A DNA stretch of 64,000 bases from Bradyrhizobium algeriense (GTDB taxonomy: Bacteria; Pseudomonadota; Alphaproteobacteria; Rhizobiales; Xanthobacteraceae). Location of the stretch: the NCBI RefSeq assembly GCF_036924595.1, contig NZ_JAZHRV010000001.1, forward strand, positions 6,661,501 to 6,725,500, read 5' to 3'. Position numbers and translations under genes: made by a program. Shown piece after piece: positions 15,890 through 34,441 of the stretch; position 1 is the first letter of the stretch; each line of letters starts with the position of its first letter. Below the pieces are notes generated by a model. It ran no database searches. It had not been told where the DNA came from and saw only the letters and a list, made by a program, of their open reading frames with translations.

Positions 15890-16035
15890 GGTTGGACTCC
15901 GTCGATCGTTCTGGCCCATGATGGGAGGCAATGGACGTGGATCACGTCCCCGGGGAGCTATCCAGGGTGCGGATAACGTCCCCGGAATATCTAACAAACT
16001 ACCTCGCAAATTCATCCAAAGAAACGCTTCGCTCG

Positions 16036-16845: not shown

Positions 16846-16998
16846 AATCGGGATTTTCTTCCCCTAACCGCCTGAAATACCAAAGAAATAATTGACGAAA
16901 CCATATTTCCAGGCGCGTTTTCGAACCGCTTTCCAGCACGCTCCGTCCAACTGGGCATGCGGACCACAATGGCCGCTCAACACAGGATGGAGATTTCC

Positions 16999-17253
16999 AT
17001 GTCGATCAAGACCAAGTTCACCGCTCTCGCCCTCGCTACCGTTGCCGTTACCAGCATGGCTTCCACGCAGGCTCAGGCCAAGCCGCTGCACTGGGGTGTC
17101 GGCGCCGGCCTCGTTGGCGCAGCTATCGTCGGCACTGCGATCGCCGCTTCAGGCCCCGGCTACTACTACGACGGCTATCGCCGCTGCGGCTGGGTTCGCC
17201 AGTTCGACGCTTTCGGCAATTACATCGGCCGCGTCCGGACCTGCGGTTACTGA
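16999..17253 (+). CDS. Small secreted Gly/Tyr/Cys protein, unknown function
   Basis: An 84-residue protein with a clear signal peptide (MSIKTKFTALALATVAVT to TQAQA). It then has a short hydrophobic Gly/Ala stretch and a C-terminal CGWVRQFDAFGNYIGRVRT with two Cys. Small secreted proteins of this look are common in bradyrhizobia and have no assigned role. ATG 16999 follows a GGAG-containing leader. An ATG at 16987 is an alternative. Confidence 0.7.
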   Translation: MSIKTKFTALALATVAVTSMASTQAQAKPLHWGVGAGLVGAAIVGTAIAASGPGYYYDGYRRCGWVRQFDAFGNYIGRVRTCGY

Positions 17254-17341
17254 TTTCTGCGGCTGACTTGGTTTCTGTTTGAGAAGCGACTTTCTTCAAG
17301 CAAGCCATTTCAAGACCTGACAACGCTTCCTCTTGTTTGAC

Positions 17342-17386
17342 GCGTTTTCTTCACGCGAACCGGAATACCACTTCGCTCGAAAACGC
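17342..17386. repeat. Palindromic intergenic repeat
   Basis: GCGTTTTC at 17342-17349 is the exact complement of GAAAACGC at 17379-17386. The interior (CACGCGAACCGG, CCACTTCGCTC) matches an intergenic palindrome that I recognise as frequent in Bradyrhizobium genomes. Confidence 0.6.
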
Positions 17387-17442
17387 TTCTGTCGTGGATT
17401 TGCGTCCAGCACGGGCGCCTCATCCACCCCCGTGCTGAACCC

Positions 17443-17481
17443 GACCCGCCCGGTTGTCCCCCCGGGCGGGTCACCCTTTTT
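17443..17481 (+). terminator. Intrinsic terminator
   Basis: An 11-bp perfect stem, GACCCGCCCGG (17443-17453) with CCGGGCGGGTC (17462-17472), and an 8-nt loop. It is followed by ACCC and a run of five T. It reads on the plus strand and lies 190 bp after the small secreted protein gene. Confidence 0.8.
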
Positions 17482-17652
17482 GGGATGCAGGCTGGCAGTC
17501 AGAGCCCGGCCCGTCGCGATGTGTCAGCGATGTCTCCGAACACCCGTCAGCGATCTGTCCGAACGGTAGCTGCGATGACGCACTGGGCCAATGTTGCAGC
17601 AACGTCACGCAGGCGTGTCATCGAATCGTAGTTGCCGGTCCTCTTCTTGCTA

Positions 17653-17669
17653 TTGCGAATTACTCGCAA
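17653..17669. promoter_or_regulatory. 17-bp Fur/Mur-type operator, copy 4
   Basis: TTGCGAATTACTCGCAA, the most symmetrical of the four copies (arms TTGCGAAT and ACTCGCAA). It lies 173 bp upstream of the fusion-porin gene and matches the three sites around the metal importer. Confidence 0.6.
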
Positions 17670-17841
17670 TAAAGATCGGCCAGAATGCGGATAGTTCCGG
17701 TCTGGTGCTGACCGGGGGCACGGTGGGAATGGGATAGGGGCGACGGGGTTGATGACTTCAATTGTTGGGTGGCGGCAGGCATTCGAATCTGCAGTGATGG
17801 CAGGCAGCGACAGCATGGGTCGCATCAGGAATGTCTAAACT

Positions 17842-19860
17842 GTGAACCGCAACCGCCGATCCCTGGAACATGCGCTGGCTGGCGTCGCGTTCGGCGCGCT
17901 GGCGCTCGGCAGCCAGGCGATGGCAGCCGACATGCCGCTCAAGGCGCCGCATCTTCGTCCGGCGTTCGACTGGAGCGGCTTCTATCTCGGCGGCCATGTC
18001 GGCTACGGCGGCGGCAGCTTCGGTCCCGGTACCAATCCGCTGCCGCTGCAAGGCGTGTTCTTTCCCCACAGCATCACGGGTCTGATCGGCGGCTATCAGG
18101 CGGGTTACAATTTTCAGCTCCCGAACAATCTGGTGTTGGGCGCCGAGGCCGATGTTTCGTTCCTGAGCACGCTTGATCGTCCAAGGCTTGATCATCCAAG
18201 GCTTGCGCCGGCCCCTTTCAACACCAGCTTCGACTACATTGCCACGGTCCGGGGACGCGTCGGATACGCATTCGGAACGCTGCTGCCCTATGTGACCGGC
18301 GGCGTCGCCTGGGCCCGAACCCGCGTCGACGTCAATGATGTCGACGGCAGCCTGTTATCCGAGCGGGGGCACGCACCTCTTGGCTGGACCGCAGGTATTG
18401 GCATCGAATATGCCGCCGATGCCAAATGGAGCGCAAAAGTCGAATATGGCTACATCGATCTGGGAGCCCGAACCTACGGACTTGCGGATGTATCGCTGCC
18501 GGACGTCGCCATCGACCCGAAGGTCCACACCGTCAAGCTCGGATTGAACTACAGGATCTGGGACGGGCCGGGTTCCGCGACATCAGGCGATTATGTCATC
18601 AAGCCGCCCACCCCTCCCGCATCCAGGGACTGGAACGTTCACGCCCAGACGACCCTCATATCGCAGGGCTATCCGAGCTTCCGCTCGCCGTATCAAGGGT
18701 CCAATAGCTTGCCCGGCGCCGGACGCGTGCGAGAGACCTGGACGGTCGGAGCCTTCCTCGGATGGCGGTTGTGGGATGGCGGAGAGTTCTATTTTGGTCC
18801 GGAGCTTGCGCAAGGTTTTGGAATCGGCGGCACATTAGGCTTGGCAGGGTTTTCAAACGGCGAAGCGCAAAAAGGCGGCGCCGAATATCCGAGATTCCGC
18901 GCACAGCGCTATTTCTTCCGGCAGACTTTCGGGCTGGGAGGCGAACAGGAAGAGGTGGCCGATGCGGCCAATCAGTTGCCGGGCAAACGCGACATCGACC
19001 GGGTTACAGTAACGGTCGGGCGATTTGCCGTCGGCGATTTCTTTGACGGCAATTCCTACGCAAAAGATCCGCGCGTCGATTTCATGAACTGGTCAATGTG
19101 GGCGTCGGCGGCCTATGACTTTCCGGCCGACCTTCCCGGATTTACCCGCGGCGCCGTGGTCGAACTCAATCGCAAGGATTGGGCCGTGCGCGCGGGCCTG
19201 TTTCAGGTGCCCTCTGCTCCCAACAGCGATGTCCTCACCTTCAAGACCGGCGGAGCTGTTGTCGAATTCGAGGAACGTCATACCGTGTTCGACCAGCCCG
19301 GCAAACTGCGGCTCGGCATCTTCGCCAATCGCGGCAATACCGGCAACTACCGCAACGCGCTGGCGATCAGCGCCGCAGACCCGGCACTCGATATCAACAA
19401 CGTCATGTCAGACATCCAGCGCCAAAATTTCAAATACGGATTTTACGTCAACGCCGAACAACAGCTCATGAAGGATGTCGGCCTGTTCGCCCGTGCGAGC
19501 TGGAACGACGGCCGGAACCAAATCCTGTCCTTTACCGACATCGACCGCAGCGTCGCGGCAGGCCTGTCGGTCAAGGGCAGCTATTGGGGACGGCCGAGCG
19601 ATACATTCGGTTTGGGCGGCGCAATCAACGGACTTTCCGGCGGGCACCGCGATTTCCTGGCGGCCGGCGGCCTCGGCCTGTTGATCGGCGACGGCCGTCT
19701 CAACTACAGCAACGAACGAATCCTCGAGACCTACTACGCCTACGCGATCGACAAGAACTTCACCCTCACCGCCGATTACCAGTTGATCACCAACCCCGCC
19801 TATAACGCCGACCGCGGCCCGGTCCACGTCTTCTCCGGCCGCTTCCACGGCGAGTTCTAA
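17842..19860 (+). CDS. Outer-membrane protein: Omp25-type barrel fused to OprB porin
   Basis: A 672-residue protein with a signal peptide ending near QAMAAD. Residues about 30-245 are an Omp25/31-type eight-stranded barrel (FDWSGFYLGGHVGYGGG, GLIGGYQAGYNFQ, VEYGYIDLG, HTVKLGLNYRI). Residues about 260-672 are a complete OprB-type porin ending in Phe (DYQLITNPAYNADRGPV, FSGRFHGEF), as outer-membrane barrels do. Both halves would insert in the outer membrane. The GTG start has AGGA 10 nt upstream. A Fur/Mur-type palindrome upstream links it to the metal importer. It might be a metal channel like MnoP of B. japonicum, but orthology cannot be judged here. Confidence 0.85.
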   Translation: MNRNRRSLEHALAGVAFGALALGSQAMAADMPLKAPHLRPAFDWSGFYLGGHVGYGGGSFGPGTNPLPLQGVFFPHSITGLIGGYQAGYNFQLPNNLVLGAEADVSFLSTLDRPRLDHPRLAPAPFNTSFDYIATVRGRVGYAFGTLLPYVTGGVAWARTRVDVNDVDGSLLSERGHAPLGWTAGIGIEYAADAKWSAKVEYGYIDLGARTYGLADVSLPDVAIDPKVHTVKLGLNYRIWDGPGSATSGDYVIKPPTPPASRDWNVHAQTTLISQGYPSFRSPYQGSNSLPGAGRVRETWTVGAFLGWRLWDGGEFYFGPELAQGFGIGGTLGLAGFSNGEAQKGGAEYPRFRAQRYFFRQTFGLGGEQEEVADAANQLPGKRDIDRVTVTVGRFAVGDFFDGNSYAKDPRVDFMNWSMWASAAYDFPADLPGFTRGAVVELNRKDWAVRAGLFQVPSAPNSDVLTFKTGGAVVEFEERHTVFDQPGKLRLGIFANRGNTGNYRNALAISAADPALDINNVMSDIQRQNFKYGFYVNAEQQLMKDVGLFARASWNDGRNQILSFTDIDRSVAAGLSVKGSYWGRPSDTFGLGGAINGLSGGHRDFLAAGGLGLLIGDGRLNYSNERILETYYAYAIDKNFTLTADYQLITNPAYNADRGPVHVFSGRFHGEF

Positions 19861-19887
19861 CCGACGTCCCTGCGAAGGCGGTGACAT

Positions 19888-19973
19888 GTAGCCCGGATGG
19901 AGCGCAGCGCATCCGGGTAAGCCTGTCCGCAGGCGAGACGTGCCCAGATTGCGCTTCGCTCCATCCGGGCTAC
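19888..19973. repeat. Inverted repeat between convergent genes
   Basis: GTAGCCCGGATGGAGCG at 19888 is complementary to CGCTCCATCCGGGCTAC-type sequence ending at 19973 (with an inner GCATCCGGG copy). This is a bradyrhizobial intergenic repeat. Lying between two converging genes it could act as a two-way transcription stop. Confidence 0.65.
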
Positions 19974-19990
19974 GCGGTCGTATTCGCGCC

Positions 19991-21622
19991 TCACCCCACC
20001 GGCTGGAAAGAATCCGCGCGTGCCATCGCCCAGGCGTCGCGGAAGCGCGGATCGTTGGTGCCTTCGATCAGCTCGCCCGGCCGCAGCGACGGATAGAGTT
20101 TCGCGAATGACAATGTGTCGTTCGTGGAGGATCGCTGCGTGAAGTGGATCGGCCGTAATTGCTGCGGATGTTCGAGGCCGGCTGCGGCGATAAGCTCGGA
20201 TAGGGCGTGCAGGGTGGCGTGATGATAGCTGTAGACCCGCTCGATCTTGAGCGGCACCACCAGCGCGCGGGCGCGGAGCGGATCCTGGGTGCTCACGCCC
20301 GTCGGGCATCGATCGGTATGGCAGCTCAGCGACTGGATGCAGCCGAGAGCGAACATGAACCCGCGCGCAGAATTGCACCAGTCGGCGCCGATCGCCATCG
20401 CGCGCGCCATGTCGAAGGCGGTCGCGATCTTGCCAGCGGCGCCGATCTTGACGCGGTCGCGCGCATTGATGCCGATCAGTGCATTATGGACGAAATTGAC
20501 GCCCTCCCGCATCGGCATGCCCAGATGGTCCATGAATTCCAGCGGCGCAGCGCCGGTGCCGCCTTCATTGCCGTCGACGACGATGAAATCAGGATATATC
20601 CCGGTCTGCAGCATCGCCTTGCAGATTGCCAGGAATTCCCAGGGATGACCGACGCACAGCTTGAACCCGGCGGGCTTGCCGCCGGATAATCGTCGCATCT
20701 CGCCGATGAAGGCCATCATTTCCAGCGGCGTCGAGAACGCGCTGTGCGTGGCCGGCGAAATGCAATCCTCGCCCATGGCGACACCGCGAATTTTGGAGAT
20801 CTCTTCAGAGACTTTGGCCGCCGGAAGGACCCCGCCATGTCCGGGCTTGGCGCCCTGGCTGACCTTCAGTTCGACCATCTTGATCTGATCGTCGCTGGCG
20901 ACGCGGGCAAATTCCTCCGGGTTGAACGAGCCGTCGCGGTTGCGGCAGCCGAAATAACCCGAGCCGATTTCCCAGATGATGTCACCGCCATGTTCGCGGT
21001 GATAAGGACTGACGCCGCCCTCGCCTGTGTCATGCGCAAAGCGGCCCTTCTTCGCACCCGCATTCAGCGCCCGCACGGCGTGGGGGCTGAGCGCTCCAAA
21101 ACTCATCGCGGAGATGTTGAAGACCGAGGCCGAGTATGGCTTGGTGCAATCCGGACCACCGATGGTGACGCGAAATTGCTCGACGGCACGAGCTTTCGGC
21201 GCCATCGAATGGTGCATCCATTCATAACCGTCGCGGTAGACGTCCTCCTGGGTGCCGAACGGCCGCTTGTCGAGCACCATCTTGGCGCGCTGATAGACCA
21301 AGGCGCGGGTGTCGCGGGAAAACGGCATACCATCCTTCTCGCTCTCGAAGAAGTACTGCCGTATCTCCGGCCGAATTTCCTCGAGCAAGAAGCGGATATG
21401 CGCCGAGATCGGATAGTTGCGTAAAACCGCGTGGTTCTTTTGCAGGAGATCGCGAATGCCGAGCAGCGTGAGCGCGCCAAAAATCACGATCGGGAGCAGC
21501 AACAGCTCCCACACCTTGATGTTATGGTCGAAAATCCCGATGCCGATCAGCAAGGCGGTGACGACGGCGCAGATCGTCAGAATGATGTAGCGTGGCGAGA
21601 ACGGCAGCAGCAGTGTTTCCAT
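19991..21622 (-). CDS. FMN-binding glutamate-synthase-family membrane protein
   Basis: 543 residues. Two hydrophobic N-terminal segments (residues about 10-55) are followed by a glutamate synthase central/FMN barrel domain: FNISAMSFGALS, HDTGEGGVSPYH, KPGHGGVLPAAKV and GNEGGTGAAPLEF. The Cys cluster CIQSLSCHTDRCPTGV resembles the 3Fe-4S motif of GltB. There is no amidotransferase domain, so it is not a complete glutamate synthase. Stand-alone members of this family are widespread and uncharacterised, and may oxidise or reduce an amino-acid-like substrate at the membrane. ATG 21622 has GAGGGA before it. Confidence 0.85.
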   Translation of the reverse strand: METLLLPFSPRYIILTICAVVTALLIGIGIFDHNIKVWELLLLPIVIFGALTLLGIRDLLQKNHAVLRNYPISAHIRFLLEEIRPEIRQYFFESEKDGMPFSRDTRALVYQRAKMVLDKRPFGTQEDVYRDGYEWMHHSMAPKARAVEQFRVTIGGPDCTKPYSASVFNISAMSFGALSPHAVRALNAGAKKGRFAHDTGEGGVSPYHREHGGDIIWEIGSGYFGCRNRDGSFNPEEFARVASDDQIKMVELKVSQGAKPGHGGVLPAAKVSEEISKIRGVAMGEDCISPATHSAFSTPLEMMAFIGEMRRLSGGKPAGFKLCVGHPWEFLAICKAMLQTGIYPDFIVVDGNEGGTGAAPLEFMDHLGMPMREGVNFVHNALIGINARDRVKIGAAGKIATAFDMARAMAIGADWCNSARGFMFALGCIQSLSCHTDRCPTGVSTQDPLRARALVVPLKIERVYSYHHATLHALSELIAAAGLEHPQQLRPIHFTQRSSTNDTLSFAKLYPSLRPGELIEGTNDPRFRDAWAMARADSFQPVG

Positions 21623-21798
21623 GGAATCCCTCGGCTGGATTGTCGTGGCGCCGGCGCCAGCTTAGTCCAACCGCCGGAACGAGCGCTACACGATATACGG
21701 GGCGATGCTCACGGAAGTGACGTCGGCTAAAAAAATAGTTGGCGGCTTTAATAAACCTGTCGCTTTTGCAGTGCAGCGTAACGGCCCGGGCCGGCCAG

Positions 21799-22671
21799 TC
21801 AGTGGCTGTGCAACCGCATCTCGTGCGGGATCTTGCCCTGCTGCAGGCCGTGCTGGGCCAGCCAGGCGTCGGTGGAGAGAATGGCGCGGTCGATGTGATC
21901 GGCGGTTCGCGAGAAATCGTAGGGCGAGCCCACCAGCGGGCAGAGCGGCGGCACCACGAAATACTCGATATCGGACGCAAGCATTTCAAGCTCGGTGACC
22001 AGTTGCCGCGCGATCAGGAGCGTGAGCGCGTGCAGCGCGTTGGCGACCGCCCCGACCGGCGGCGCCTGGTTCGCACAGGCGTGCCCGGTCGGCAGAATGA
22101 TCAGGCGCCTGGCGCCCTTCTTCACGGCGACCTGTATCGGCGTGTTGCTGGAGATCGCGCCGTCGGCGAGATAATGATCCTTGTAGCGGATCGGCGAGAA
22201 CGCGCCCGGGATCGCGGTGGACGCGACGATCGCCTCCGCCGTGGAGCCCTCCGACAACACCACGCTGTCGCCGGAGACGATGTCGGTGGTGACGATATGC
22301 ACCGGCAGCTTCGCCTCTTCCAGATTGCGATAGGGGATGTGATCCTCGATCAGCTTGCGGATGCCGTCATGAGGAATCAGAAAATCGCGGCGCCACAGAA
22401 AACTCAGCACCGTCCGCCAGCTCATCGGAAAGACGTCGTGCCGCGTCAAACCGCGCCAGATCGCGGCGAGCCGCTGCACGCCATCAAGCGTAGGATCGCC
22501 GGCATAGAATGCGCCGTTCAGGGCGCCAACGCTGCAGCCGACCACCATATCAGCGGCGACGCCATGCGCGGCAAGCGAATGCAGCATACCGACCTGAATG
22601 GCCCCGAAGCTGCCGCCGCCCGCAAACACGAAGGCGGTCTTTGCCGGACCGATCTCGTCGCGTACCGACAC
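21799..22671 (-). CDS. Patatin-like phospholipase
   Basis: Ser-Asp dyad acyl hydrolase of 290 residues. The oxyanion loop is AGGGSFGA (residues 18-24), the nucleophile is Ser47 in GCSVG, and the dyad Asp lies in LADGAISSNTP. The GTG start at 22671 is supported by GGGAG 7 nt upstream. No signal peptide is visible, so it acts in the cytoplasm or at the inner membrane, or is exported another way. The gene stands alone between the FMN protein and a repeat. The lipid substrate is unknown. Confidence 0.87.
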   Translation of the reverse strand: MSVRDEIGPAKTAFVFAGGGSFGAIQVGMLHSLAAHGVAADMVVGCSVGALNGAFYAGDPTLDGVQRLAAIWRGLTRHDVFPMSWRTVLSFLWRRDFLIPHDGIRKLIEDHIPYRNLEEAKLPVHIVTTDIVSGDSVVLSEGSTAEAIVASTAIPGAFSPIRYKDHYLADGAISSNTPIQVAVKKGARRLIILPTGHACANQAPPVGAVANALHALTLLIARQLVTELEMLASDIEYFVVPPLCPLVGSPYDFSRTADHIDRAILSTDAWLAQHGLQQGKIPHEMRLHSH

Positions 22672-22764
22672 GCGCGAACTCCCTCATCGCAGCGTCGGCA
22701 ACAGGCCGCACGGCGTTCGGGAGCGCTTATAGCAGTGGGAGATGGGGTGGGCTACACAGGCCCG

Positions 22765-22892
22765 CCGTCATTCCGGGGCGATGCGAAGCATCGAACTATG
22801 GGGCGCCCCTTGCGCCCCTGAGAATCTCGAGGTTCCCCGATGCGCAATTGCGCATCTGAGGTCTGGTCCTTCGGACCATCCCGGAATGACGG
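22765..22892. repeat. Long inverted intergenic repeat (CCGTCATTCCGGG type)
   Basis: Starts CCGTCATTCCGGGG and ends CATCCCGGAATGACGG, with GATGCGCAATTGCGCATC inside. It is a typical bradyrhizobial palindromic repeat lying between the patatin gene and the ferredoxin reductase gene. Confidence 0.7.
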
Positions 22893-22900
22893 TCAACTCA

Positions 22901-23674
22901 TCAACGCTCGACGAACGCCTTCTCGATCACGAAATGGCCGGGCGTGTTGTGGCTGCCTTCGAGGAAGCCGCCGGACTCGAACATTTGCTTCAACTCGTCC
23001 AGCATCCCCGGGCTGCCGCACATCATGACGCGATCGGTCTCGATATTGAGCGGCGCCTGGTGGATGTCGTTGAACAACTGCTCCGACGATATCAGGTCGG
23101 TGATGCGGCCGCGGTTGCGGAACGGCTCGCGGGTCACCGTCGGGTAATACAGCAGCTTCTCCGACAACAGCGGTCCGAACAGCTCATCCTCGCGCAGCTT
23201 GGCGACGAGTTCCTCGCCATAGGCGAGTTCGGAAACCTGGCGGCAGCCGTGAACGAGCACGATGGTCTCGAAGCGCTCATAGACGTCGGGATCCTTGATC
23301 AGGCTCGCGAACGGCGCGAGACCGGTGCCGGTCGACAGCAGCAGCAAACGCTTGCCCGGAATCAGATTGTCGGTGATCAGCGTGCCGGTCGCCTTGCGGC
23401 CGACCAGAATCTCGTCGCCCGCGCGGATCTTCTGCAGCTTCGAGGTCAGCGGCCCGTCCGCGACCTTGATGGAGAAGAATTCGAGCTCTTCCTCGTGATT
23501 GGCGCTCGCCATGCTGTAGGCACGCAAAAGCGGCCGGCCCTCGACCTCGAGGCCGATCATCGCAAACTGGCCGTTCTGGAAGCGGAAACCGGAATCACGG
23601 GTGGCCCGGAAGCTGAAAAGCGTATCGGTCCAGTGGCGAACAGAAAGAACCTTCTCTCTATAGAATGCGCTCAT
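22901..23674 (-). CDS. fpr: Ferredoxin/flavodoxin-NADP+ reductase
   Basis: FAD enzyme of 257 residues, the standard length of bacterial Fpr. The FAD-binding RAYSMAS motif, the NADP site STGTGLAPFASLI and MMCGSPGMLDE, and the C-terminal VIEKAFVER (aromatic residue followed by a short tail, alphaproteobacterial subclass) are visible. It passes electrons between NADPH and ferredoxin or flavodoxin, for example in redox homeostasis and iron metabolism. Start at ATG 23674 follows from family length. It is divergent from the ATP-grasp gene. Confidence 0.93.
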   Translation of the reverse strand: MSAFYREKVLSVRHWTDTLFSFRATRDSGFRFQNGQFAMIGLEVEGRPLLRAYSMASANHEEELEFFSIKVADGPLTSKLQKIRAGDEILVGRKATGTLITDNLIPGKRLLLLSTGTGLAPFASLIKDPDVYERFETIVLVHGCRQVSELAYGEELVAKLREDELFGPLLSEKLLYYPTVTREPFRNRGRITDLISSEQLFNDIHQAPLNIETDRVMMCGSPGMLDELKQMFESGGFLEGSHNTPGHFVIEKAFVER

Positions 23675-23963
23675 GGGTTTTCGTTTTTCCTGACGTCTCG
23701 ATGTAGAACGTTTCGGTCTTCGGGCCTTGAAGTGCCAGAAATCAGCGAAATTACTGGCGATTTGGCGCTTCATTTGCGCACAGCAGATACATAGTCAATA
23801 TGACCTACAGCACAATCGAGAACTCGGAATGGCTGTCGGTCTAATTTGCAGAAAGGTTCGATTGGCTTCGTTAACGCTTTCTCGCGCAATTAACTTGCTG
23901 AATTCGGCACCGATCTGGCAATAAATGACCATGTCAAATTAAGAACGTTTCAAAAGAGATCGC

Positions 23964-24962
23964 ATGCGGAGCCCAACTGAATTTCGAAAGGGAAAACCGG
24001 GCTTCTATCCGGACCAGGCGATCTATGCCGAATTTGCCTGCGCTGAATTTGGGCTCCATTTTCGCGACCTCGACGGCGGGTCGGGGTTGATCTTCAGCGT
24101 CGCCTCGCGCGACGGGCTGGTTCATTTCGGCGCCGGCCGATGCTCCTGGTATCCGCAGAACAGCGCGACCGCCTCGACGCTGGCGTCCGACAAACATTTT
24201 ACGAGCCGGATCTTGCGCGAAGCCGGCGTCCCGGCGCTTGGCGGCGAATATTTCTTCCTGCACGAGCGCTATCGCGCGCAGCGCCCGGCGGGACATGAGC
24301 GCAGCGATGCGCTTGCCCATTTCGAGACATTGGGCGGATCAGCTTTCGTCAAGCCTCTGACGGGATCGCGCGGCGATTTCGCGCAAGCCATTCACGGCGA
24401 CGCGGCGTTCATTCGCTATCTCGACGAGGTGCCGAAATATTACGACGCCGTGCTGATCCAGCCGATCGTCGAGGGAAGCGAGTATCGCGTTTTCCTGCTT
24501 GACGACGACGCGCTCTATTGCGCGCGAAAATATCCGCCGTCCGTCACGGGCGACGGCGTGCATACCACACGTGAATTGCTCACCGTCCACAATGATGCCC
24601 TGCGCGCGCGCGGTCTCTCGCCTGCTTCGCTGCCGAACCAGGATCCGTCGCTCGATACTGTCCCGGCAAAGGGCGAACGCCGCGAGATTCCCGGGCGCAT
24701 GAATCTGAGCGCGGGCGGCACGATGGTGCTGGCACCGGCGCCATCCGAAAAAGCCATCACCCTGGCGCGGCAGGCTGCGCGTGCGATCGGTCTCCGCGTC
24801 GCGGCCATCGACATGTTCGTCGATATCGGTGGCAAGCCGGATGCAATCGAGATCATCGAGATCAATTCCAATCCCGCGATCCGACTACTGGAGCAATCCA
24901 ATCGCGGCGATCTCATTCTAAAAATCTGGCATCACACCTTCTCCACCATGGGATTGCTGTAG
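23964..24962 (+). CDS. ATP-grasp amino-acid ligase resembling half of cyanophycin synthetase
   Basis: A 332-residue ATP-grasp enzyme. Similarity to the ATP-grasp core of CphA is seen in ASDKHFTSRILREAGVPA (residues about 74-90), SAFVKPLTGSRGDFAQAI, EYRVFLLDDDALYCARKYPP, VTGDGVHTTRELL and the metal-binding IEIIEINSNPAIR. CphA is one chain of about 870-900 residues with an N-terminal domain, ATP-grasp and Mur ligase. Here the ATP-grasp part stands alone, and a FolC-like Mur ligase follows as a separate gene overlapping by one base. It probably activates a carboxylate as acyl phosphate and joins an amino acid. Substrates are unknown. No thioesterase, cyanophycinase or RiPP precursor gene was seen nearby. 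Confidence 0.8.
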   Translation: MRSPTEFRKGKPGFYPDQAIYAEFACAEFGLHFRDLDGGSGLIFSVASRDGLVHFGAGRCSWYPQNSATASTLASDKHFTSRILREAGVPALGGEYFFLHERYRAQRPAGHERSDALAHFETLGGSAFVKPLTGSRGDFAQAIHGDAAFIRYLDEVPKYYDAVLIQPIVEGSEYRVFLLDDDALYCARKYPPSVTGDGVHTTRELLTVHNDALRARGLSPASLPNQDPSLDTVPAKGERREIPGRMNLSAGGTMVLAPAPSEKAITLARQAARAIGLRVAAIDMFVDIGGKPDAIEIIEINSNPAIRLLEQSNRGDLILKIWHHTFSTMGLL

Positions 24963-26278
24963 TGTTCGACCTGCCGAAATACGGCGACGGCATCTGCCTC
25001 GCGCGCATGGCCGGATTGCTGGAAGCGCTCGGAATCGATCGCCTGCGGCTGCAGCGCATCTCGGTGGTGGTGACCGGCTCGAACGGCAAGGGCAGCACGG
25101 CGGCGATGTGCGCCGGTATCGGCCGCGCCTACGGCCTGCGCACCGGCCTCTTCACCTCCCCGCATCTCTTCCGTTTCAACGAACGGATTCAGGTCGATGG
25201 CGTCGAGATCGACGACGACGCGCTCGCTCGCCTGAAGCGGCGGGTCGAAGCCGTCATCGCCGACGTCTCGAAGCGGATGGGCGAGCAGTTCGGCGCTTTC
25301 GAAGCGCTGTTCGCACTCGCCTGCCTGCACTTCCAGGAGAGCGGATGCGACTTCACCGTGTTCGAAGCCGGCATCGGCGGACGCTACGATCCGGTGCGCC
25401 TGATCGGCGCGCGCGAAACTTGCGTCACCTCGGTCGATTACGAGCATGTCGAACTGCTCGGAAACTCGCTTGAACTGATCGTATCGGACAAGAGCGACGC
25501 CTGCGCTGCCGGCGGCACGATCGTCTATGGCGAGAACTGCCGAGGCTTGCGGGCGCACCTCGTCGAGTATAATCGCGCGCGCGGCTGCACGCCGCTGTTC
25601 ATCCGCGATGATATCCGTATCGATAATGCGGTGACGGCAGCCTCAGGCCAGCATTTCGATTTCCAGTTCGGATATCATGATTATCGCCACCTCGAAGTGA
25701 GCCTGTCCGGCGCGTTCCAGTTCAACAACTCGGCCATTGCCGTCACCCTGTTCCTGCTCTGGCTGCAGCGCGAGCAGCCGCGCAAGCCTCCGGACCGAGT
25801 CGAGACTGCGATACGCGCCGGCTTGCGCGATGCGCGATGGCCCGGCCGCCTCGAGGTCATCAGTCAGGACCCGTTCACCGTAATCGACGTCGGTCACACC
25901 CCCGACGGCATCCGGCAATCGCTGGCAAGTCTGCTGGCGATCCATGGCAGCGAAGATTGGATCCTCGTGATCGGTGCATCTGGCGACAAGAAGGCGCAGG
26001 AAATCGTCGGCGCGCTGGCGCCGTCGTTTGATACGATCATCTGCACGGCGGCGCATCACAAGGGAGCGGACGCGCAACGCATCGCCGCCGCTGCCGCGCG
26101 CGCCAACCCCGCCGCGAGCCTCCGTGTCGCCGCCTCGATCGAGGAGGCGGTGCGACTGGCGGGGGACGTTGCTGCCGCGCATTCGCAAAGAATTTATGTC
26201 GCCGGCGGCCTGTTCCTGGCGATCGAATACGCAACGGCCGCCCGTGGCGGCCGCCCGCAAGACCTGCATTTCTTCTGA
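24962..26278 (+). CDS. FolC-like Mur ligase, partner of the ATP-grasp gene
   Basis: A 438-residue Mur-ligase-superfamily protein of the folylpolyglutamate synthase type. The P-loop is TGSNGKGST (residues about 38-46). FTSPHLFRFNERIQVDG, FEAGIGGRYDPV, VDYEHVELLGNSLELI, WPGRLEVI and VIDVGHTPDGIR each mirror FolC landmarks. Departures include GHTPD where FolC usually has DGAHNP, and DKSDA where FolC has EKAGI. It is therefore unlikely to be the housekeeping FolC. The GTG start shares a base with the TAG of the ATP-grasp gene, indicating co-translation. The pair suggests sequential ATP-dependent addition of amino acids to an unknown acceptor. Confidence 0.8.
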   Translation: MFDLPKYGDGICLARMAGLLEALGIDRLRLQRISVVVTGSNGKGSTAAMCAGIGRAYGLRTGLFTSPHLFRFNERIQVDGVEIDDDALARLKRRVEAVIADVSKRMGEQFGAFEALFALACLHFQESGCDFTVFEAGIGGRYDPVRLIGARETCVTSVDYEHVELLGNSLELIVSDKSDACAAGGTIVYGENCRGLRAHLVEYNRARGCTPLFIRDDIRIDNAVTAASGQHFDFQFGYHDYRHLEVSLSGAFQFNNSAIAVTLFLLWLQREQPRKPPDRVETAIRAGLRDARWPGRLEVISQDPFTVIDVGHTPDGIRQSLASLLAIHGSEDWILVIGASGDKKAQEIVGALAPSFDTIICTAAHHKGADAQRIAAAAARANPAASLRVAASIEEAVRLAGDVAAAHSQRIYVAGGLFLAIEYATAARGGRPQDLHFF

Positions 26279-27202
26279 CTAGTTGCTTCCGTGCTTGTCG
26301 TCGAGCACCCTGAAGGCTTCCTCGAGTTGCGGCGAGATCGCGACGCCGAGCTTTTCCCCGGTCGGCAGTCGCGCGACGAACCATTTGTTGTAGAGCGGGA
26401 TCAGGTCACGGCCCGAACCGAGTTTCTGGAAAGTGCGCTCGACCACGGCCTTCAACTGCGGCTCACCCTTGCGGAACATGATGCCGTAGGGATCGTAGGA
26501 CAGATACTCGCCGGTGACCTTGAATTGGCCCTGCGCCTTGTGCCGCGCGATCAGGCCGTAGAGCAGGATGTCGTCGGTCGCGAACGCATCGGCCTTGCCG
26601 TCCACCAGCGTCTGATAGGACTGTTCGTGATCGGGTGCCGTCACGATGTTGAGGCCGAGCGAAAACTTCTTGTCGATCGCGTGCATGGCCTGCTCGTTGG
26701 TGGTGCCCTTGGTCACCACCACGGTCTTGCCCTTCAGGTCCGTGGGCGCCGAGATGGTGGACGCCTTCGGCACCATCAGCTTGGTGCCGGCCACGAAGAT
26801 CAGCGGCGAGAACGCCACCTGTTTCGCGCGCTCGGCATTGGCCGTGGTCGAACCGCATTCGAGGTCGATCTTGTTCTGCACCACCGCCTGAATGCGGTCA
26901 TCCGAAGTGACCTTAACGTATTCAATCTTGAGATTGGCATCGTCGACCTCGACGCCGATCTCCTCGACGATCGCCTCGCACAGTTCGAGGCTGTAGCCGA
27001 TCGGCCGGTTGGACTGGTCCAGGAACGAGAACGGCGGCGAACTCTCGCGGTAGCCGAGACGCACGACATGCGTCCGCTTGATGTTGGCGAGCGTCGGGCT
27101 GAGCCCTTCGCTGGCGGTCTGGGCAGACGCCGGCGTGGCCAGCAGGCAGGCGGCCAGCAGCATTGCGCCGACCCCTGCCAACCTCCTTGGGAATTGATGC
27201 AT
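26279..27202 (-). CDS. Amino-acid-type periplasmic binding protein (GltI-like), no cognate ABC genes
   Basis: Family 3 solute-binding protein of 307 residues with a signal peptide ending near TPASAQ. LGYRESSPPFSFLDQ, GYSLELCEAIVEEI, DLECGSTTANAERAKQVAFS and FATDDILLYGL resemble the glutamate/aspartate binder GltI. The conserved Arg and Asp that hold the amino-acid group are plausible in NAERAKQ and FATDD. ATG 27202 has GGGGAGAG upstream. It lies 12 bp downstream of a DctA/GltP-type symporter gene in the same operon, and no permease or ATPase gene is adjacent, which is an odd partnership. Confidence 0.85.
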   Translation of the reverse strand: MHQFPRRLAGVGAMLLAACLLATPASAQTASEGLSPTLANIKRTHVVRLGYRESSPPFSFLDQSNRPIGYSLELCEAIVEEIGVEVDDANLKIEYVKVTSDDRIQAVVQNKIDLECGSTTANAERAKQVAFSPLIFVAGTKLMVPKASTISAPTDLKGKTVVVTKGTTNEQAMHAIDKKFSLGLNIVTAPDHEQSYQTLVDGKADAFATDDILLYGLIARHKAQGQFKVTGEYLSYDPYGIMFRKGEPQLKAVVERTFQKLGSGRDLIPLYNKWFVARLPTGEKLGVAISPQLEEAFRVLDDKHGSN

Positions 27203-27214
27203 TCATCTCTCCCC

Positions 27215-28504
27215 TCAATGTGCCGGAACAGGGTCGCCCGGAACGGCGTCGGTGGGCACGACGTCATCGGGTCCGAGCTCATGCTCGGCCTTCAGCTCGC
27301 CCTCCCATTTCGCCACCACGGCGGTCGCCAGCGAATTGCCGATCACGTTGGTGGCGCTGCGTCCCATGTCGAGGAACGTGTCGATGCCCATGATCATCAA
27401 CAGACCGGCCTCGGGAATGCCGAACTGGCTGAGCGTCGAGGCGATCACCACCAGTGAGGCGCGCGGCACGCCCGCGACGCCCTTCGAGGTGATCATCAGC
27501 GTCGCCAGCATCGCGAGCTGCGTGCCGAGCGACATCTCGATGTGATAGGTCTGCGCGATGAATATGCTCGCGAAGGTGCAATACATCATCGTGCCGTCGA
27601 GATTGAACGAGTAGCCGAGCGGCAGCACGAAGGACGAAATCCGCGAGGAGGCGCCGAAGCGATTGAGGCCTTCCAGCGTCTTGGGATAGGCGGCTTCCGA
27701 GGAGGAGGTCGAGAACGCAATCATCAGCGGCTCACGGATCAGTCGCAAGAGATGGCTGTATCGCGGCCCGATCACGATGAAACCGACCACGATCAGGATG
27801 GCCCACAGGATCAGAAGCGAGAGATAGAAGCCGCCCATGAACACGATCAGCTTCCACAGCACGCCGAGGCCGTTCTTCGACACCGTCGCCATGATCGCCG
27901 CCCACACCGCGATCGGCGCGAACAGCATCACATAGCCGGTCACTTTCAGCATGATGTGGGCGAGGTCGTCGATCAGCCCCATGATCGGCTTGGCGCGCTC
28001 CGGCATCGCGCCGAGCGCGACCGCGAAGAACACGGCAAACACCACGATCTGCAGGATTTCGTTCTGCGCCATGGCATCCGCGATCGAGGTCGGGATCAGA
28101 TGAGTCAGAAACTTCTCGATCGAGAACGCCGAGACCGGCAGGCCGGTCGATTGCGTCTTGTCGGGCAGCGTGCCGGGAAAGTTGGCGCCGGGCTGCAGCA
28201 GGTTGACCATCACCAGGCCAAGCAGCAGCGAGACAAAGGAAGCGCTGACGAACCAGCCCATCGTCTTGGCGAACACGCGGCCGAGCTTCGAGCCGGAGCC
28301 CATATGGGCGATGCCGCCGACAAGGGTGGCGAACACCAAAGGCGCGATGATCATCTTGATCAGGCGCAGGAACAGCATGGCGATCAGGTTTACGTCGGCC
28401 GCGATTTCCACCCGGCTGTCGGGCATATAGTTGAAGACGATGGTTCCCATCACAATGCCAAGCGCCATAGCGATCAGGATATACTGCGTAAACCTGCTGG
28501 ACAT
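27215..28504 (-). CDS. Dicarboxylate/amino-acid:cation symporter (DctA/GltP family)
   Basis: Secondary transporter of 429 residues in the DAACS family. The family landmarks are visible: a re-entrant Ser-rich loop STSSSEAAYPKTLEG, the NLDGTMMY motif of TM7, the TSKGVAGVPRAS hairpin loop, and MGIDTFLDMGRSATNVIGN in TM8. The Arg and Asn of the last motif bind substrate carboxylates. It imports C4-dicarboxylates, aspartate or glutamate with protons or sodium. The first gene of a two-gene operon with a GltI-like binding protein. No dctBD regulators are in the window. Confidence 0.9.
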   Translation of the reverse strand: MSSRFTQYILIAMALGIVMGTIVFNYMPDSRVEIAADVNLIAMLFLRLIKMIIAPLVFATLVGGIAHMGSGSKLGRVFAKTMGWFVSASFVSLLLGLVMVNLLQPGANFPGTLPDKTQSTGLPVSAFSIEKFLTHLIPTSIADAMAQNEILQIVVFAVFFAVALGAMPERAKPIMGLIDDLAHIMLKVTGYVMLFAPIAVWAAIMATVSKNGLGVLWKLIVFMGGFYLSLLILWAILIVVGFIVIGPRYSHLLRLIREPLMIAFSTSSSEAAYPKTLEGLNRFGASSRISSFVLPLGYSFNLDGTMMYCTFASIFIAQTYHIEMSLGTQLAMLATLMITSKGVAGVPRASLVVIASTLSQFGIPEAGLLMIMGIDTFLDMGRSATNVIGNSLATAVVAKWEGELKAEHELGPDDVVPTDAVPGDPVPAH

Positions 28505-28725
28505 TCTTGCACCCCCGTATTTCCGGCAACCACAAGTTTGGCAGATTTGAATGAGGACGCAACAAGCTTGCGGCGTTTTGTACGCTTGCCAGAATGTTCC
28601 CGTTGTGAAATGCGCGCGCGCCGACTAGCGTTCATGCAGCGCACAATCTGTGCAGGTGATCGCCTGATGCGCAGCCAATTGCATCCGGAAACGCCAGAAC
28701 AACAACGCCGAGGGGAGACAACATC

Positions 28726-29727
28726 ATGAACGACGCTGTCAATCGTCAGATCCTGCTGGTCGAGAAGCCGACCGGCAAGCTCGGGCCCGAGCATTTCAAG
28801 ATGGTCAACGGCGCAGTGCCCGAGCCGAAGGACGGCGAGGCGCTGGTGCGGACACGCTATATCTCGCTCGACGCCGCCAACCGGGCGTGGATGCACGGCG
28901 CGACCTATCGTGCCGCCGTCGAGGCCAACACCGTGATGGCAGGCGGCAGCATCGCCGAAGTCGTCTCGTCGAAAGCGCCCGGACTGACAGCGGGCGATAT
29001 CGTATTCGGCGACACCGGCTGGCAGGATTACGCCGCCGTACCAGCAAAACATCTCACCAAGATGCCAAAGATGGAACCGATGACGCATCTGCTCAGCGTG
29101 TACGGCATCGCTGGCCTCACCGCCTATTTCGGCCTGCTGCACGTCGGCAATCCGAAGGCCGGCGAGACCGTCGTGGTGTCGGCCGCGGCCGGCTCGGTCG
29201 GATCAATCGTCGGACAGATCGCGAAGATCAAGGGCTGCAACGTCATCGGCATCGCCGGCGGTAAGGACAAATGCCACTGGCTCACCTCCGAGCTCGGCTT
29301 CGATGCCGCGGTCGATTACAAGGACGGCGCCACCTTCAAGGCGCTGCGGGCCGCAGCGCCCAAGGGCATCGACGTCTATTTCGACAATGTCGGCGGCGAC
29401 ATTCTCGAAGCCTGCCTTTCGCTGATGAACAACCGCGGCCGCATCGCCTGCTGCGGCGCCATCTCGCAATATGACGGCGTGCCGTCGGCCCATGGCCCCC
29501 GCGGCGTGCCCGGCCTGATCGTGGTCAAACGCCTTATCATGCAAGGCTTCATCGTGATGGACTACATGGACCAGAGCGCTGCGGCGCTGGCCGACCTGCA
29601 GTCCTGGGTCGCCTCGGGAAAGCTGAAGGTGCAGGAAGACGTGATCGACGGAATCGAGAACACGCCGAAGGCGCTGATCGGCCTGCTCGCCGGCGAGAAC
29701 CGCGGCAAGCGCATGGTGCGGGTGTAA
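28726..29727 (+). CDS. NADP-dependent oxidoreductase, zinc-free MDR (CurA-like)
   Basis: Medium-chain dehydrogenase/reductase of 333 residues. It lacks the zinc-ligand Cys and His pattern of alcohol dehydrogenases. It has VVVSAAAGSVGSIVGQIAK (Rossmann entry), GGKDKCHWL and VYFDNVGGDILE, as in the leukotriene-B4 dehydrogenase/CurA/YncB group, which reduce double bonds of enones. GAGGGGAGA-like sequence lies just before the ATG. It is divergent from the symporter operon, with about 220 bp between. Confidence 0.88.
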   Translation: MNDAVNRQILLVEKPTGKLGPEHFKMVNGAVPEPKDGEALVRTRYISLDAANRAWMHGATYRAAVEANTVMAGGSIAEVVSSKAPGLTAGDIVFGDTGWQDYAAVPAKHLTKMPKMEPMTHLLSVYGIAGLTAYFGLLHVGNPKAGETVVVSAAAGSVGSIVGQIAKIKGCNVIGIAGGKDKCHWLTSELGFDAAVDYKDGATFKALRAAAPKGIDVYFDNVGGDILEACLSLMNNRGRIACCGAISQYDGVPSAHGPRGVPGLIVVKRLIMQGFIVMDYMDQSAAALADLQSWVASGKLKVQEDVIDGIENTPKALIGLLAGENRGKRMVRV

Positions 29728-29747
29728 GGCGAAGTCCGTAGCAATCC

Positions 29748-29865
29748 GTAGGGTGGGCAAAGGCGCAACGCGCCGTGCCCACCATTTCTTGCCGTGCTAG
29801 TGATGGTGGGCACGCTTCCGCCTTCGCTCGTTGAGCTACGGCGGACAGGTCGCTTTGCCCACCCT
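29748..29865. repeat. GTAGGGTGGGCAAAG-type repeat, copy 1
   Basis: GTAGGGTGGGCAAAG at the left, CGTGCCCACCA and TGGTGGGCACG inside, and CGCTTTGCCCACCCT at the right end. It shares its ends and inner arms with the copy at 42742 in this window. A bradyrhizobial intergenic repeat placed between converging genes. Confidence 0.75.
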
Positions 29866-29869
29866 TGAT

Positions 29870-32800
29870 CTAGTGCGTCGCAGCAGGCGCCGTCTGCGCG
29901 CCCGTCTTCTTCACCTTGCGCTCCTTCACCCAGTTCTCGAACCGCTGGATCACGACAAAGAATGTCGGCACAAACAGCACGGCCAGACAGGTCGAGGCCA
30001 GCATGCCCGAGGCCGCCGTGATGCCAATCGACTTCCGGGCGTTGGCGCCGGCGCCGGTTGCAAGCACCAGCGGGATCATGCCGAAGATGAAAGCAAACGA
30101 CGTCATCAGGATCGGCCGGAACCGGGCTCGCGCCGCCTCGATGGCGGATTCCAGCAACGGCTTGCGATCGCGCACGTGCAGTTCCAGCGCCACCTCGACG
30201 ATCAGGATGGCGTTCTTGGCCGACAGCGCGATCAACAGGATGATGCCGATCTGGGTATAGAGGTTGTTCTCGATCCTTAAACCGGTCAGCACGATCATAG
30301 GGCCGAGCAAGGACAGCGGCACCGCGAGAATCACCGAGATCGGCGCGTACCAGCTTTCATATTGTCCGGCCAGCACGAGGTAGACCAGCAGCAGGCCCAG
30401 GCCGAACGCCCAGTAGATCTGGCCGCCGACGACCTTCTCCTGGTACGACATCGCCGTCCACTCGAAGCCCGTGCCGGGCGGCAGGGTCTTCGCGGCAATC
30501 TGCTCCATCAGATTCATCGACTGACCTGAGCTGTAACCCGTCGCCGGCAGACCGATGATGGTTGCGGAAGGATACAGATTGTACAGGCTGATCAGCGACG
30601 GACCGACCGCCGGCGTAATCTTTGCCACCGTGCCGAGCGGGATCATGTCGCCATTGCTGTTACGCACCATCATGTTCTGCATATCACGCGGCGTCAGGCG
30701 GAATTGCGCGTCCGCCTGCGCATAGACCTGGAAGGTACGACCGAACTTGTTGAACTGGTTGACGAAGGTCGAACCCATGTAAGTGGACAACGTCGAAAAG
30801 ATCTGGTCGGTCGTGACATGCAGCGTCTGGGTCTTGATTCGGTCCACCTCGATGTCGAACTGCGGCACCATCGAGCGGAACGGCGAACTGACCCGCTGCA
30901 GCGCGCTCTGTGACGACGCATTGGCGACGATCGCGCCGGTGATCGCCTGCAACTTGCTGAAGTCGGAATTGCCGTCGCGGAGCTGGACCTGCATCGCAAA
31001 GCCGGCGGCGTTACCGATACCCTGGATCGGCGGCGGTGGAACCACCAGGATCCGCGCCTCCTCGATGACGGACAGTTTTTCGTTCAATCCGACGAACAGC
31101 GACCGCAGATCCTCACCTGGCCCTCGCGCGCTCCACTCTTTCAAGATCAAATAGGCGACGCCCGCATTGGCGAGACTGGAAGAATTGTCGAGCGCGGAGA
31201 TGCCGGAAATGGCGATCACCTGATCGACACCCGGGGCCTTGCCGGCTATCTCGCTGACCTGGGTAAGCACACGCTGGGTACGCTCAAGCGCCGCACCATC
31301 AGGCAATTGCACGGCGACCAGGAGATAGCCCTGGTCCTCGATCGGAATGAAGCCGGTCGGCACCCGCGACAGGCCGTAGCCACCGATAGCGATCAGAATC
31401 AGCGCGCAGACGACTGAAACATTGCTGTGCGCGACCAGGCGGCCGATCAGCCGGCTGTAGCCGGCCTCGACGCGGTTATAGACCGCGTTGAAGCCGCGAT
31501 AGAAAAAGTTGCGCTGTTCCGGCGGCACCGGCCGGCGCAGCCACAATGCGCATTGCGTCGGCTTCAGCGTCGCCGCGTTGATGGCGCTGAGCAGCGCGGT
31601 TGCGGCAATCACCAGCGCGAACTGCGCATACATCTGCCCAGTCAATCCCGGCAGAAACGCCGAGGGCAGGAACACCGAGATCAGCACCAGCGTAATGCCG
31701 ATGATTGGCGCGAACAGCGCGTCCATCGCACTGATCGCGGCGTCATGGCCGGACATGCCCTTCTCGATATTGTGGGCTGCGCCTTCGACCACGACGATGG
31801 CGTCATCCACCACGATGCCGATCGCGAGCACGATCGCAAACAGGGTCGAGATATTGACGGTGAAGCCGAGCGCCGCCATCGCAGCAAAGGCGCCGATGAT
31901 CGTCACCGGCACCGTGGTCGCGGGCACCAGCATCGCGCGCCAGTCCTGCAGGAAGATCAGGATCACGACGAGGACGAGCAAACCCGCCTCGATCAGCGTC
32001 TTGTAGACCTCATTGATCGATTCCGAGACGAATTTGGTGGTGTCGAACGGCGTGTCGTAGGTCACGTCCTGCGGAAACGCCTTCGCTAGCACCTGCATCT
32101 TCTTCTCGACGGCCTGCTGGACCTCGAGCGCGTTAGCGCCGGGCGACTGGAATACGCCGATGCCGGTGGCCGGCTTGTTGTTGAGCGAGAACGCCTGGCT
32201 GTAGGTCTGGGCGCCGAGCTCGACCCAGCCGACATCGCGAACGCGCGTGACGTCGCCGCTGGTGCCGGTCTTGACGATCACGTTCTCGAACTCGCTGGTG
32301 TCAGCGAGCCGTCCACTGACGTTCAGCGTATACTGGAACGCCTGCCCTGCGGGCGCTGGCGGTGCCCCGACCTGGCCCGCGGTGACCTGCTGGCTCTGCT
32401 GCTGGATCGCCGAAATGACATCCTGCGGCATCAGCCCGCGCGCATACAGCTTGTTCGGATCGAGCCAGACCCGCATCGAGTACTGGCCGGCCCCGAACAC
32501 GGTGACGTTGCCGACGCCGGGTAAACGCGACAGCTCATCGCGGATATTGATGGTGGCGTAGTTGCTCAGGAACAGGCTGTCATAGGTCGCTTTCGGCGAC
32601 GTCAGCGTCACGAACAGCAGGATCGCCGTCGATCTCTTCTGCACGGTGACGCCCTGGCTCTGCACCGACTGCGGCAGTTGAGCCAGCGCGCTCGACACCC
32701 GGTTCTGCACCAACACCTGCGCGAAGTTGAGGTCGGTGCCGATCTTGAAAGTGACCGTCAGCGTATAGGTGCCGTCGGCACCGCTGTAGGACTGCATGTA

Positions 32801-33031
32801 GAGCATGTCCTCGACGCCGTTGACCTGCTGCTCGATCGGCAGCGCCACCGTATCGATCACGGTTTTCGCGCTGGCGCCGGGATAGCGGGTGGTCACCTGC
32901 ACCGTCGGCGGCACGACCTCAGGATACTGCGCGACGGCCAGCCGGAACAGGCAGACGCCGCCGATCAGGATCATCAGGATCGCGATGACGTTGGAAAGAA
33001 CGGGCCGCTCGATAAAAAATTTCGAAATCAT
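29870..33031 (-). CDS. RND multidrug efflux permease (AcrB/MexF-like, HAE1)
   Basis: Inner-membrane proton-driven drug exporter of 1053 residues, full length for HAE1 pumps. The N-terminal ISKFFIERPVLSNVIAI, the proton-relay DD in GIVVDDAIVVVE (TM4), and the QYESWYAPISVILAVPLS and LSAKNAILIVE (TM10-11) segments are present. MexF/BpeF-like phrasing such as FGAGQYSMRVWLDP is seen. It lies 10 bp downstream of the adaptor gene. No outer-membrane factor gene is present in the pair, so it must borrow a TolC/OprM-type channel. Confidence 0.93.
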   Translation of the reverse strand: MISKFFIERPVLSNVIAILMILIGGVCLFRLAVAQYPEVVPPTVQVTTRYPGASAKTVIDTVALPIEQQVNGVEDMLYMQSYSGADGTYTLTVTFKIGTDLNFAQVLVQNRVSSALAQLPQSVQSQGVTVQKRSTAILLFVTLTSPKATYDSLFLSNYATINIRDELSRLPGVGNVTVFGAGQYSMRVWLDPNKLYARGLMPQDVISAIQQQSQQVTAGQVGAPPAPAGQAFQYTLNVSGRLADTSEFENVIVKTGTSGDVTRVRDVGWVELGAQTYSQAFSLNNKPATGIGVFQSPGANALEVQQAVEKKMQVLAKAFPQDVTYDTPFDTTKFVSESINEVYKTLIEAGLLVLVVILIFLQDWRAMLVPATTVPVTIIGAFAAMAALGFTVNISTLFAIVLAIGIVVDDAIVVVEGAAHNIEKGMSGHDAAISAMDALFAPIIGITLVLISVFLPSAFLPGLTGQMYAQFALVIAATALLSAINAATLKPTQCALWLRRPVPPEQRNFFYRGFNAVYNRVEAGYSRLIGRLVAHSNVSVVCALILIAIGGYGLSRVPTGFIPIEDQGYLLVAVQLPDGAALERTQRVLTQVSEIAGKAPGVDQVIAISGISALDNSSSLANAGVAYLILKEWSARGPGEDLRSLFVGLNEKLSVIEEARILVVPPPPIQGIGNAAGFAMQVQLRDGNSDFSKLQAITGAIVANASSQSALQRVSSPFRSMVPQFDIEVDRIKTQTLHVTTDQIFSTLSTYMGSTFVNQFNKFGRTFQVYAQADAQFRLTPRDMQNMMVRNSNGDMIPLGTVAKITPAVGPSLISLYNLYPSATIIGLPATGYSSGQSMNLMEQIAAKTLPPGTGFEWTAMSYQEKVVGGQIYWAFGLGLLLVYLVLAGQYESWYAPISVILAVPLSLLGPMIVLTGLRIENNLYTQIGIILLIALSAKNAILIVEVALELHVRDRKPLLESAIEAARARFRPILMTSFAFIFGMIPLVLATGAGANARKSIGITAASGMLASTCLAVLFVPTFFVVIQRFENWVKERKVKKTGAQTAPAATH

Positions 33032-33041
33032 GGCCCGGCTC

Positions 33042-34244: not shown

Positions 34245-34441
34245 TTTTCGTGCCTCAATTGGGTTGTTCAGAAAAATGTCTATTCAGAAATCGGCGTTCG
34301 GCGCCACCCCATGAAAATAGCAACAATCCGCTTGCAGTGAAACCGGAAAGCGAAAATGATGCCGGCCGTTAGAATTCTTACGACGAAATTTTACTGCGGT
34401 TGAAGCGGCGGCTTCCTGCGACGACAAAAGGATTTATTCAA

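Follow-up and report, generated by a model that had tools for sequence, protein, structure and literature searches.

A putative two-ligase cassette in an apparently exchangeable slot of Nitrobacteraceae genomes

Two described ligase systems are among the closest to the gene pair considered here. Cyanophycin synthetase (CphA) is a single chain of N, G and M domains, with an ATP-grasp fold in the G domain and an M domain of the Mur type, and a role for the P-loop residue His267 of CphA1 is described in the portion of PMC9427784 consulted. FolC, the dihydrofolate synthase/folylpolyglutamate synthase (FPGS), is a Mur ligase of the folate pathway. In Bradyrhizobium algeriense, whose genome is a single contig of 8.1 Mb, we analysed a window of 64,000 nucleotides (the whole stretch from 6,661,501 to 6,725,500 of NZ_JAZHRV010000001.1; positions below count from its first letter) that holds adjacent, separate genes for an ATP-grasp amino-acid ligase, here called type A, and for a Mur ligase of FolC fold, here called Mur2 (Table 1). 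An open-access literature search found no paper on this pair. What is new here is that the pair occupies a slot in Nitrobacteraceae genomes which otherwise holds a different, solo ATP-grasp gene, type B. At slightly better than even odds (roughly 55%), we regard the pair as two ATP-dependent carboxylate-amine ligases acting on one small-molecule product.

Both open reading frames (ORFs) proposed in the initial annotation are present, sharing one base at TAGTG, and the motifs quoted for them (VTGDGVHTTRELL, EYRVFLLDDD, IEINSNPAIR, GHTPDG and DKSDA) all occur in the translations. The nearest relatives of the type A protein come from Bradyrhizobium. Together the genes form a two-gene unit, bounded by a divergent ferredoxin-reductase-like gene upstream and a convergent gene for a Glu/Asp-type binding protein downstream. 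The one-base overlap recurs at 19 of the 22 junctions read, and translation of the two genes is probably coupled there. The dN/dS figures are low (0.15–0.25 for type A and 0.17–0.27 for Mur2; 10 pairwise comparisons from five loci each), which, together with the adjacency kept in relatives, tells us that both ORFs behave as real genes.

The earlier proposal was staked on the two genes being regular neighbours elsewhere, and so they are. They adjoin at all 23 loci of the genome_contigs set, a contig end cutting Mur2 in L015 and the ATP-grasp gene in L028. Type A was detected at E < 1e-100 in 26 of 198 genomes of the family, and Mur2 lies next to it in each of the 17 carriers inspected (this genome among them; G026 by coordinates), a count that omits G066, G072, G088, G107, G124, G144, G155, G159 and G173 and partly overlaps the 23 loci. 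A scan of the class (385 genomes) found Mur2 in three, G237, G320 and G424, each time beside a type A gene of 34–40% identity, the taxonomic order of G237 being represented by one genome only; a scan of the phylum (398 genomes) found it in four, each carrying type A. In most genomes of these two scans, scoring went no further than the four or five best candidates, so that absences are soft.

The ligase cassette appears to sit in an exchangeable slot. Between a glutamate-synthase-like gene and an oxidoreductase gene, Nitrobacteraceae carry either type A with Mur2 or type B alone. Of 40 type A loci, 34 gave the left flank gene and 35 the right one; for type B the numbers are 13 of 16 loci and 11. 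At least two of these type A loci repeat a genome (L010/L145 and L026/L143, with identical flank proteins), the type B loci comprise 15 at the slot (L124–L135, L139–L141) and L072, which is not, and the slot of G064 lies at a contig end, which leaves its right flank beyond view. Reductase and patatin genes at the left side are present in some loci and not in others. All eight Bradyrhizobium genomes sampled without type A have type B at the slot (L124–L128, L139–L141), and seven further type B loci outside this genus have the same flanks, whole or in part. The genomes of those seven were picked for a weak type A match; of the eight from Bradyrhizobium only G138 had one, and it adjoins the same reductase gene as the pair does. 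The two types occur together at none of the 40 type A and 15 slot type B loci, a count made at the locus and not across the whole of each type A genome; short type B genes would fall below the threshold of the type A scan of family genomes.

Type B forms a clade of its own (support 100/100), keeps the ATP and metal residues and lacks Arg188, Ser249 and Arg136; its NCBIfam matches, to RimK and CphA, are weak. By eye, an internal stretch of the central loop is missing from the type B of part of Bradyrhizobium. Mapped onto a tree of 47 left flank genes, the two types require four changes, all forced by well-supported branches; on a tree of 46 right flank genes they require three, two of them forced.

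The exchange can be followed most closely in G138, a type B genome whose flank DNA is about 79–89% similar to that of the type A loci L016, L018, L020 and L021. To the left, homology stops 31–37 bp before the type A start, which in G138 corresponds to 28–30 bp before the earliest possible type B start (TTG 7471) and 55–57 bp before the likelier one (ATG 7498); it resumes 58–76 bp after the type B stop. Of 24 upstream regions of type A, 23 share 76–84% identity with that of G138 and the remaining one (L022) 68%; the 289-bp region that precedes the pair in B. algeriense matches that of G138 at 77%. Because homology breaks at the gene edges and the upstream region matches that of type A, whole genes appear to have been exchanged in G138 behind an upstream region that was kept; type B genes elsewhere have a different upstream region. 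A repeat of about 100 bp was also seen between the patatin and reductase genes of G138 (L124:6299-6403) and directly 3' of Mur2 in L016 (7319-7401) and L018; L020 and L021 have it in inverted orientation, in copies of 48 and about 100 bp.

What kind of enzyme is Mur2? It passes the Pfam cut-offs for Mur_ligase_M (25.7 against 24 bits) and Mur_ligase_C (67.2 against 28.4) and the broad FolC model TIGR01499 (248.4 against 162.65 bits), and fails the equivalog models of housekeeping FolC, NF047860 (171.7 against 700) and NF008101 (124 against 360 bits). In a tree built without the MurF of the same genome, 13 Mur2 proteins stand apart from 17 FolC proteins, all alphaproteobacterial, with support of 93/91 and 99/94. 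Positions 146 and 313 are both Asn in all 17 FolCs, whereas Arg146 and Thr/Ser313 are found in each of 120 Mur2 relatives (the best 120 of 1275 retrieved with Mur2 as query); Gly111 and Arg146 of Mur2 correspond to Thr and Asn in the same 17. Mur2 departs from the FolC motifs DxTN, DH, EKAG, AHN and GSLY through Arg146, Glu161, Asp179, Thr/Ser313 and Gly416, and L. casei FPGS likewise shows the Asn, AHN and GSLY features of FolC. This bears out the initial annotation, which described a Mur half that looks like FolC yet departs from it. Nor does Mur2 fall inside the housekeeping FolC group as the sole folC of its genome: a further, housekeeping folC is present, as it is in all nine Mur2 carriers checked, this genome included. 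Mur2 thus appears to be an unrecognised FolC paralogue. No Mur2 was found on plasmids (probes P0169 and P0202, E 1e-40), and among viral contigs no relatives were found.

Named relatives among the same best 120 are mostly labelled dihydrofolate synthase or folylpolyglutamate synthase, and this, with the score on TIGR01499, would suit a duplicate of housekeeping folC lying beside an unrelated gene. Such a reading is very unlikely. Mur2 is no recent copy, at 29% identity to the FolC of its own genome, which is a second gene on a separate branch, and the pairing lasts down to the 34–40% identity seen in the class scan. Because the active-site changes are fixed in all 120 relatives, many genomes may be misannotated in the folate pathway, and new ligase chemistry is possible.

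Another link with folate would be that the pair takes over once FolC has made the folate and extends the tail of folate itself, with an amino acid of another kind or with a residue in alpha linkage. In G320 the gene order is accD, folC, type A, Mur2, trxA (neighbours by eye, folC confirmed), and in G424 two contig ends fit this order, so that folC is probably directly upstream there too. P0146 (753 residues) reads as one ORF in which a FolC-like piece (motif DATS, without P-loop, by eye) is joined to a full Mur2, and may be a fusion, an assembly artefact or tandem genes. On the strength of these three cases we retain the folate-tail role as a minority possibility, unlikely on balance. Against it stand the Gly111 and Arg146 of Mur2, the separate housekeeping folC of the nine carriers, and the identified neighbours of the Nitrobacteraceae slot, among which no folate gene was recognised.

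The partner of Mur2 is related to the ATP-grasp part of CphA. Its match to the CphA model begins at about model position 202, and it aligns to the CphA1 structure 7wae at residues 157–486 only, so that the N domain is absent, as had been proposed. At 332 residues type A does not have the N, G and M domains of CphA in its chain, and it scores 92.3 bits on NCBIfam TIGR02068 (CphA), under the cut-off of 850. In the alignment, equivalents of CphA1 Arg309, Asp431, Glu450 and Asn394 are kept in all 26 type A rows. The position of the P-loop His267 holds Arg136 in 25 of these rows and Gln in one; this His is no strict marker of CphA, since Gln also occupies the position in two of the four CphA-model matches compared. 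Type A and more distant genes form one clade (support 88/91) in a tree that left out G201, G236 (a 20-residue fragment) and G212 and whose outgroups (G444, G356, L070 and L136) were all flagged as long branches.

The initial annotation saw in the pair a split cyanophycin synthetase and, more broadly, an uncharacterised route for adding amino acids. The second idea survives, in that a module of two ligases is favoured; the first fits the ATP-grasp half only and was dropped for the Mur half, because Mur2 is FolC-like in fold and unlike the CphA Mur domain, scoring 31.8 bits on the CphA model. A divided enzyme making beta-Asp-Arg or a similar storage polymer is highly improbable, given a type A without N domain, the Arg or Gln in place of His267 (Gln being shared with some CphA-model matches), the nature of the Mur half and the lack of any gene over the CphA cut-off in this genome.

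How, then, might the two enzymes work? We propose that the ATP-grasp enzyme would phosphorylate the carboxylate of a small acceptor, the acylphosphate being held by Arg175 and magnesium bound by Asp283 and Glu299, and would couple this acylphosphate to an amino acid. Mur2 would then perform a second, FolC-like ligation, using the P-loop GSNGKGS together with Glu135, His162 and Lys177. Since Arg146 replaces the Asn of FolC, the acceptor of Mur2 may carry one more negative charge near this residue than folate does. Rather than a storage polymer, the two enzymes would probably yield a short amino-acyl amide of acidic character or a small acid with a mixed tail. This proposal builds on stable pairing, two protein families, predicted folds, conserved catalytic residues and replacement of the cassette by type B.

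One-carbon metabolism offers a further candidate in the synthesis of the methylofuran tail by polyglutamate ligases; MyfA and MyfB of Methylorubrum extorquens are ATP-grasp glutamate ligases, according to the part of PMC8141765 consulted. Of the 198 family genomes, 35 have an FhcD that passes its cut-off. None of these is among the 26 carriers of type A (in G124 a match at 4e-4 stays under the threshold), and the B. algeriense genome is without FhcD, which makes a methylofuran role hardly credible. A defence role was likewise dropped, as PADLOC matched neither protein at E 0.01.

Type A with Mur2 and type B may do the same job by different chemistry, since they swap between the same flanks and, in one case, behind the same upstream region. 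A tentative idea, possible but doubtful, is that the slot holds chemical alleles. Related strains would each produce their own form of a single undescribed metabolite or cofactor tail bearing amino acids, a two-step (mixed) form by type A with Mur2 and a one-step form by type B. Recombination in the conserved flanks would pass the cassettes between lineages, and at least once, in G138, would have left the upstream region in place. Under this idea Mur2 would be one more biochemical branch of the FolC fold, one that occurs in several phyla, Cyanobacteria and Acidobacteriota among them, and goes unnoticed because it is annotated as folC. The alternating slot is in any case a natural experiment: metabolomes of sister strains that share the flanks and differ in the ligase can be compared to find the product.

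Several observations weigh against these readings. Activity, substrate and product of the pair are all predicted from sequence, and a shared slot is no proof of a shared job. Only one type B genome, G138, shows an upstream region that was kept; at 66–70% identity, six other type B upstream regions resemble it no more than the best shuffled sequences do (means of 61–62%, maxima of 67–69%). All 16 near type A rows keep an equivalent (Arg307) of CphA1 Arg458, the residue that binds the alpha-carboxylate of the substrate amino acid, and the 10 distant rows all lack it; the amino acid may therefore differ or be bound otherwise. The pairing has its gaps as well. In G303 and G201 no Mur2 lies within the 16 kb read around a type A-like gene (E about 1e-32), and in G264 such a gene lies at a contig edge in a genome in which no FolC-type gene was found. 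Among the best 120 of 1275 Mur2 relatives, a weak test based on equal-sized contigs links 9 of 17 ATP-grasp matches to Mur2 and leaves 111 of the 120 without a type A counterpart, some 15 of them of Nitrobacteraceae type by motif. These unmatched Mur2 genes may reflect low sensitivity of the test, or other partners in other phyla. The type A-like gene of G303 (L070:7092-8102), from a 2-Mb alphaproteobacterial genome, lies downstream of genes that look phage-like by eye.

The surroundings of the pair are listed in Table 1. The glutamate-synthase-like protein, the binding protein and the symporter would suit a product made with glutamate or aspartate, but this hint is weak, since genes for the last two were found in only 9 of 40 type A and 5 of 16 type B loci, in stretches of differing length. 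The conserved block upstream of the pair may serve as a promoter. A search of window positions 15000–35000 against Rfam gave no RNA element beside the pair, the sole match over the gathering score being a Rhizobiales-2 sRNA (17361-17472, + strand, 64.5 bits). Near it, an outer-membrane protein (17842-19860, + strand) carries two domains in a single chain, one an OMP beta-barrel and the other an OprB porin.

Table 1. Features of the ligase pair and its flanks, in window coordinates
Feature	Position	Strand	Remark
ATP-grasp amino-acid ligase type A, 332 aa, CphA/GshF-like, without N domain	23964..24962	+	ATG start
Mur2, FolC-fold Mur ligase, 438 aa, apart from housekeeping FolC	24962..26278	+	GTG start
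TAGTG stop/start overlap, one base in common	24960..24964	+	19/22 junctions alike
Intergenic region upstream of pair, 289 bp, divergent from reductase gene	23675..23963	+	
Conserved block GCAATTAACTTGCTGAA..GATCTGGCAATAAAT upstream of pair	23886..23926	+	
Single-domain glutamate-synthase-like protein, 543 aa, left slot flank	19991..21622	-	Pfam PF01645, synteny
Patatin-like protein, flank in part of loci	21799..22671	-	
Ferredoxin-NADP reductase-like protein, left flank in Bradyrhizobium and some others	22901..23773	-	probable start near 23674
Glu/Asp-type periplasmic binding protein, right flank in part of loci	26279..27202	-	
Sodium:dicarboxylate (SDF) symporter, right flank in part of loci	27215..28504	-	
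Zinc-type oxidoreductase (QOR), right slot flank	28726..29727	+	

Compared with known systems, the pair combines familiar parts in its own way. Mur2 differs from FolC/folylpolyglutamate synthase in its separate branch, in coexisting with housekeeping folC, and in Gly111, Arg146, Glu161, Asp179, Thr/Ser313 and Gly416, which replace residues fixed or common in FolC. MyfA/MyfB and MptN/RimK resemble the pair in being ATP-grasp ligases, and they furnish cofactors with tails of amino acids (PMC8141765, in the part consulted); that part mentions no Mur-type partner, and type A carriers are without FhcD over its cut-off. In pseudomurein synthesis, as in the pair, Mur-type and ATP-grasp ligases serve one pathway (PMC11915815, in the part consulted), but the pMur ligases are archaeal and their models score far under cut-off on the pair. 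The ATP-grasp module of GshF comes with a GshA half that type A lacks, and is reported to have Tyr or Phe where the P-loop of type A has Arg (PMC9427784, same portion). Type A differs from CphA1, finally, in standing alone without N or M domain, in Arg136 at the position of His267 and in an Arg458 equivalent confined to its near rows, whereas with the G domain of CphA1 it shares the ATP-grasp fold, the GDG-HT-EL loop, the Asn-x-Ser loop and the equivalents of Arg309, Asp431 and Glu450.
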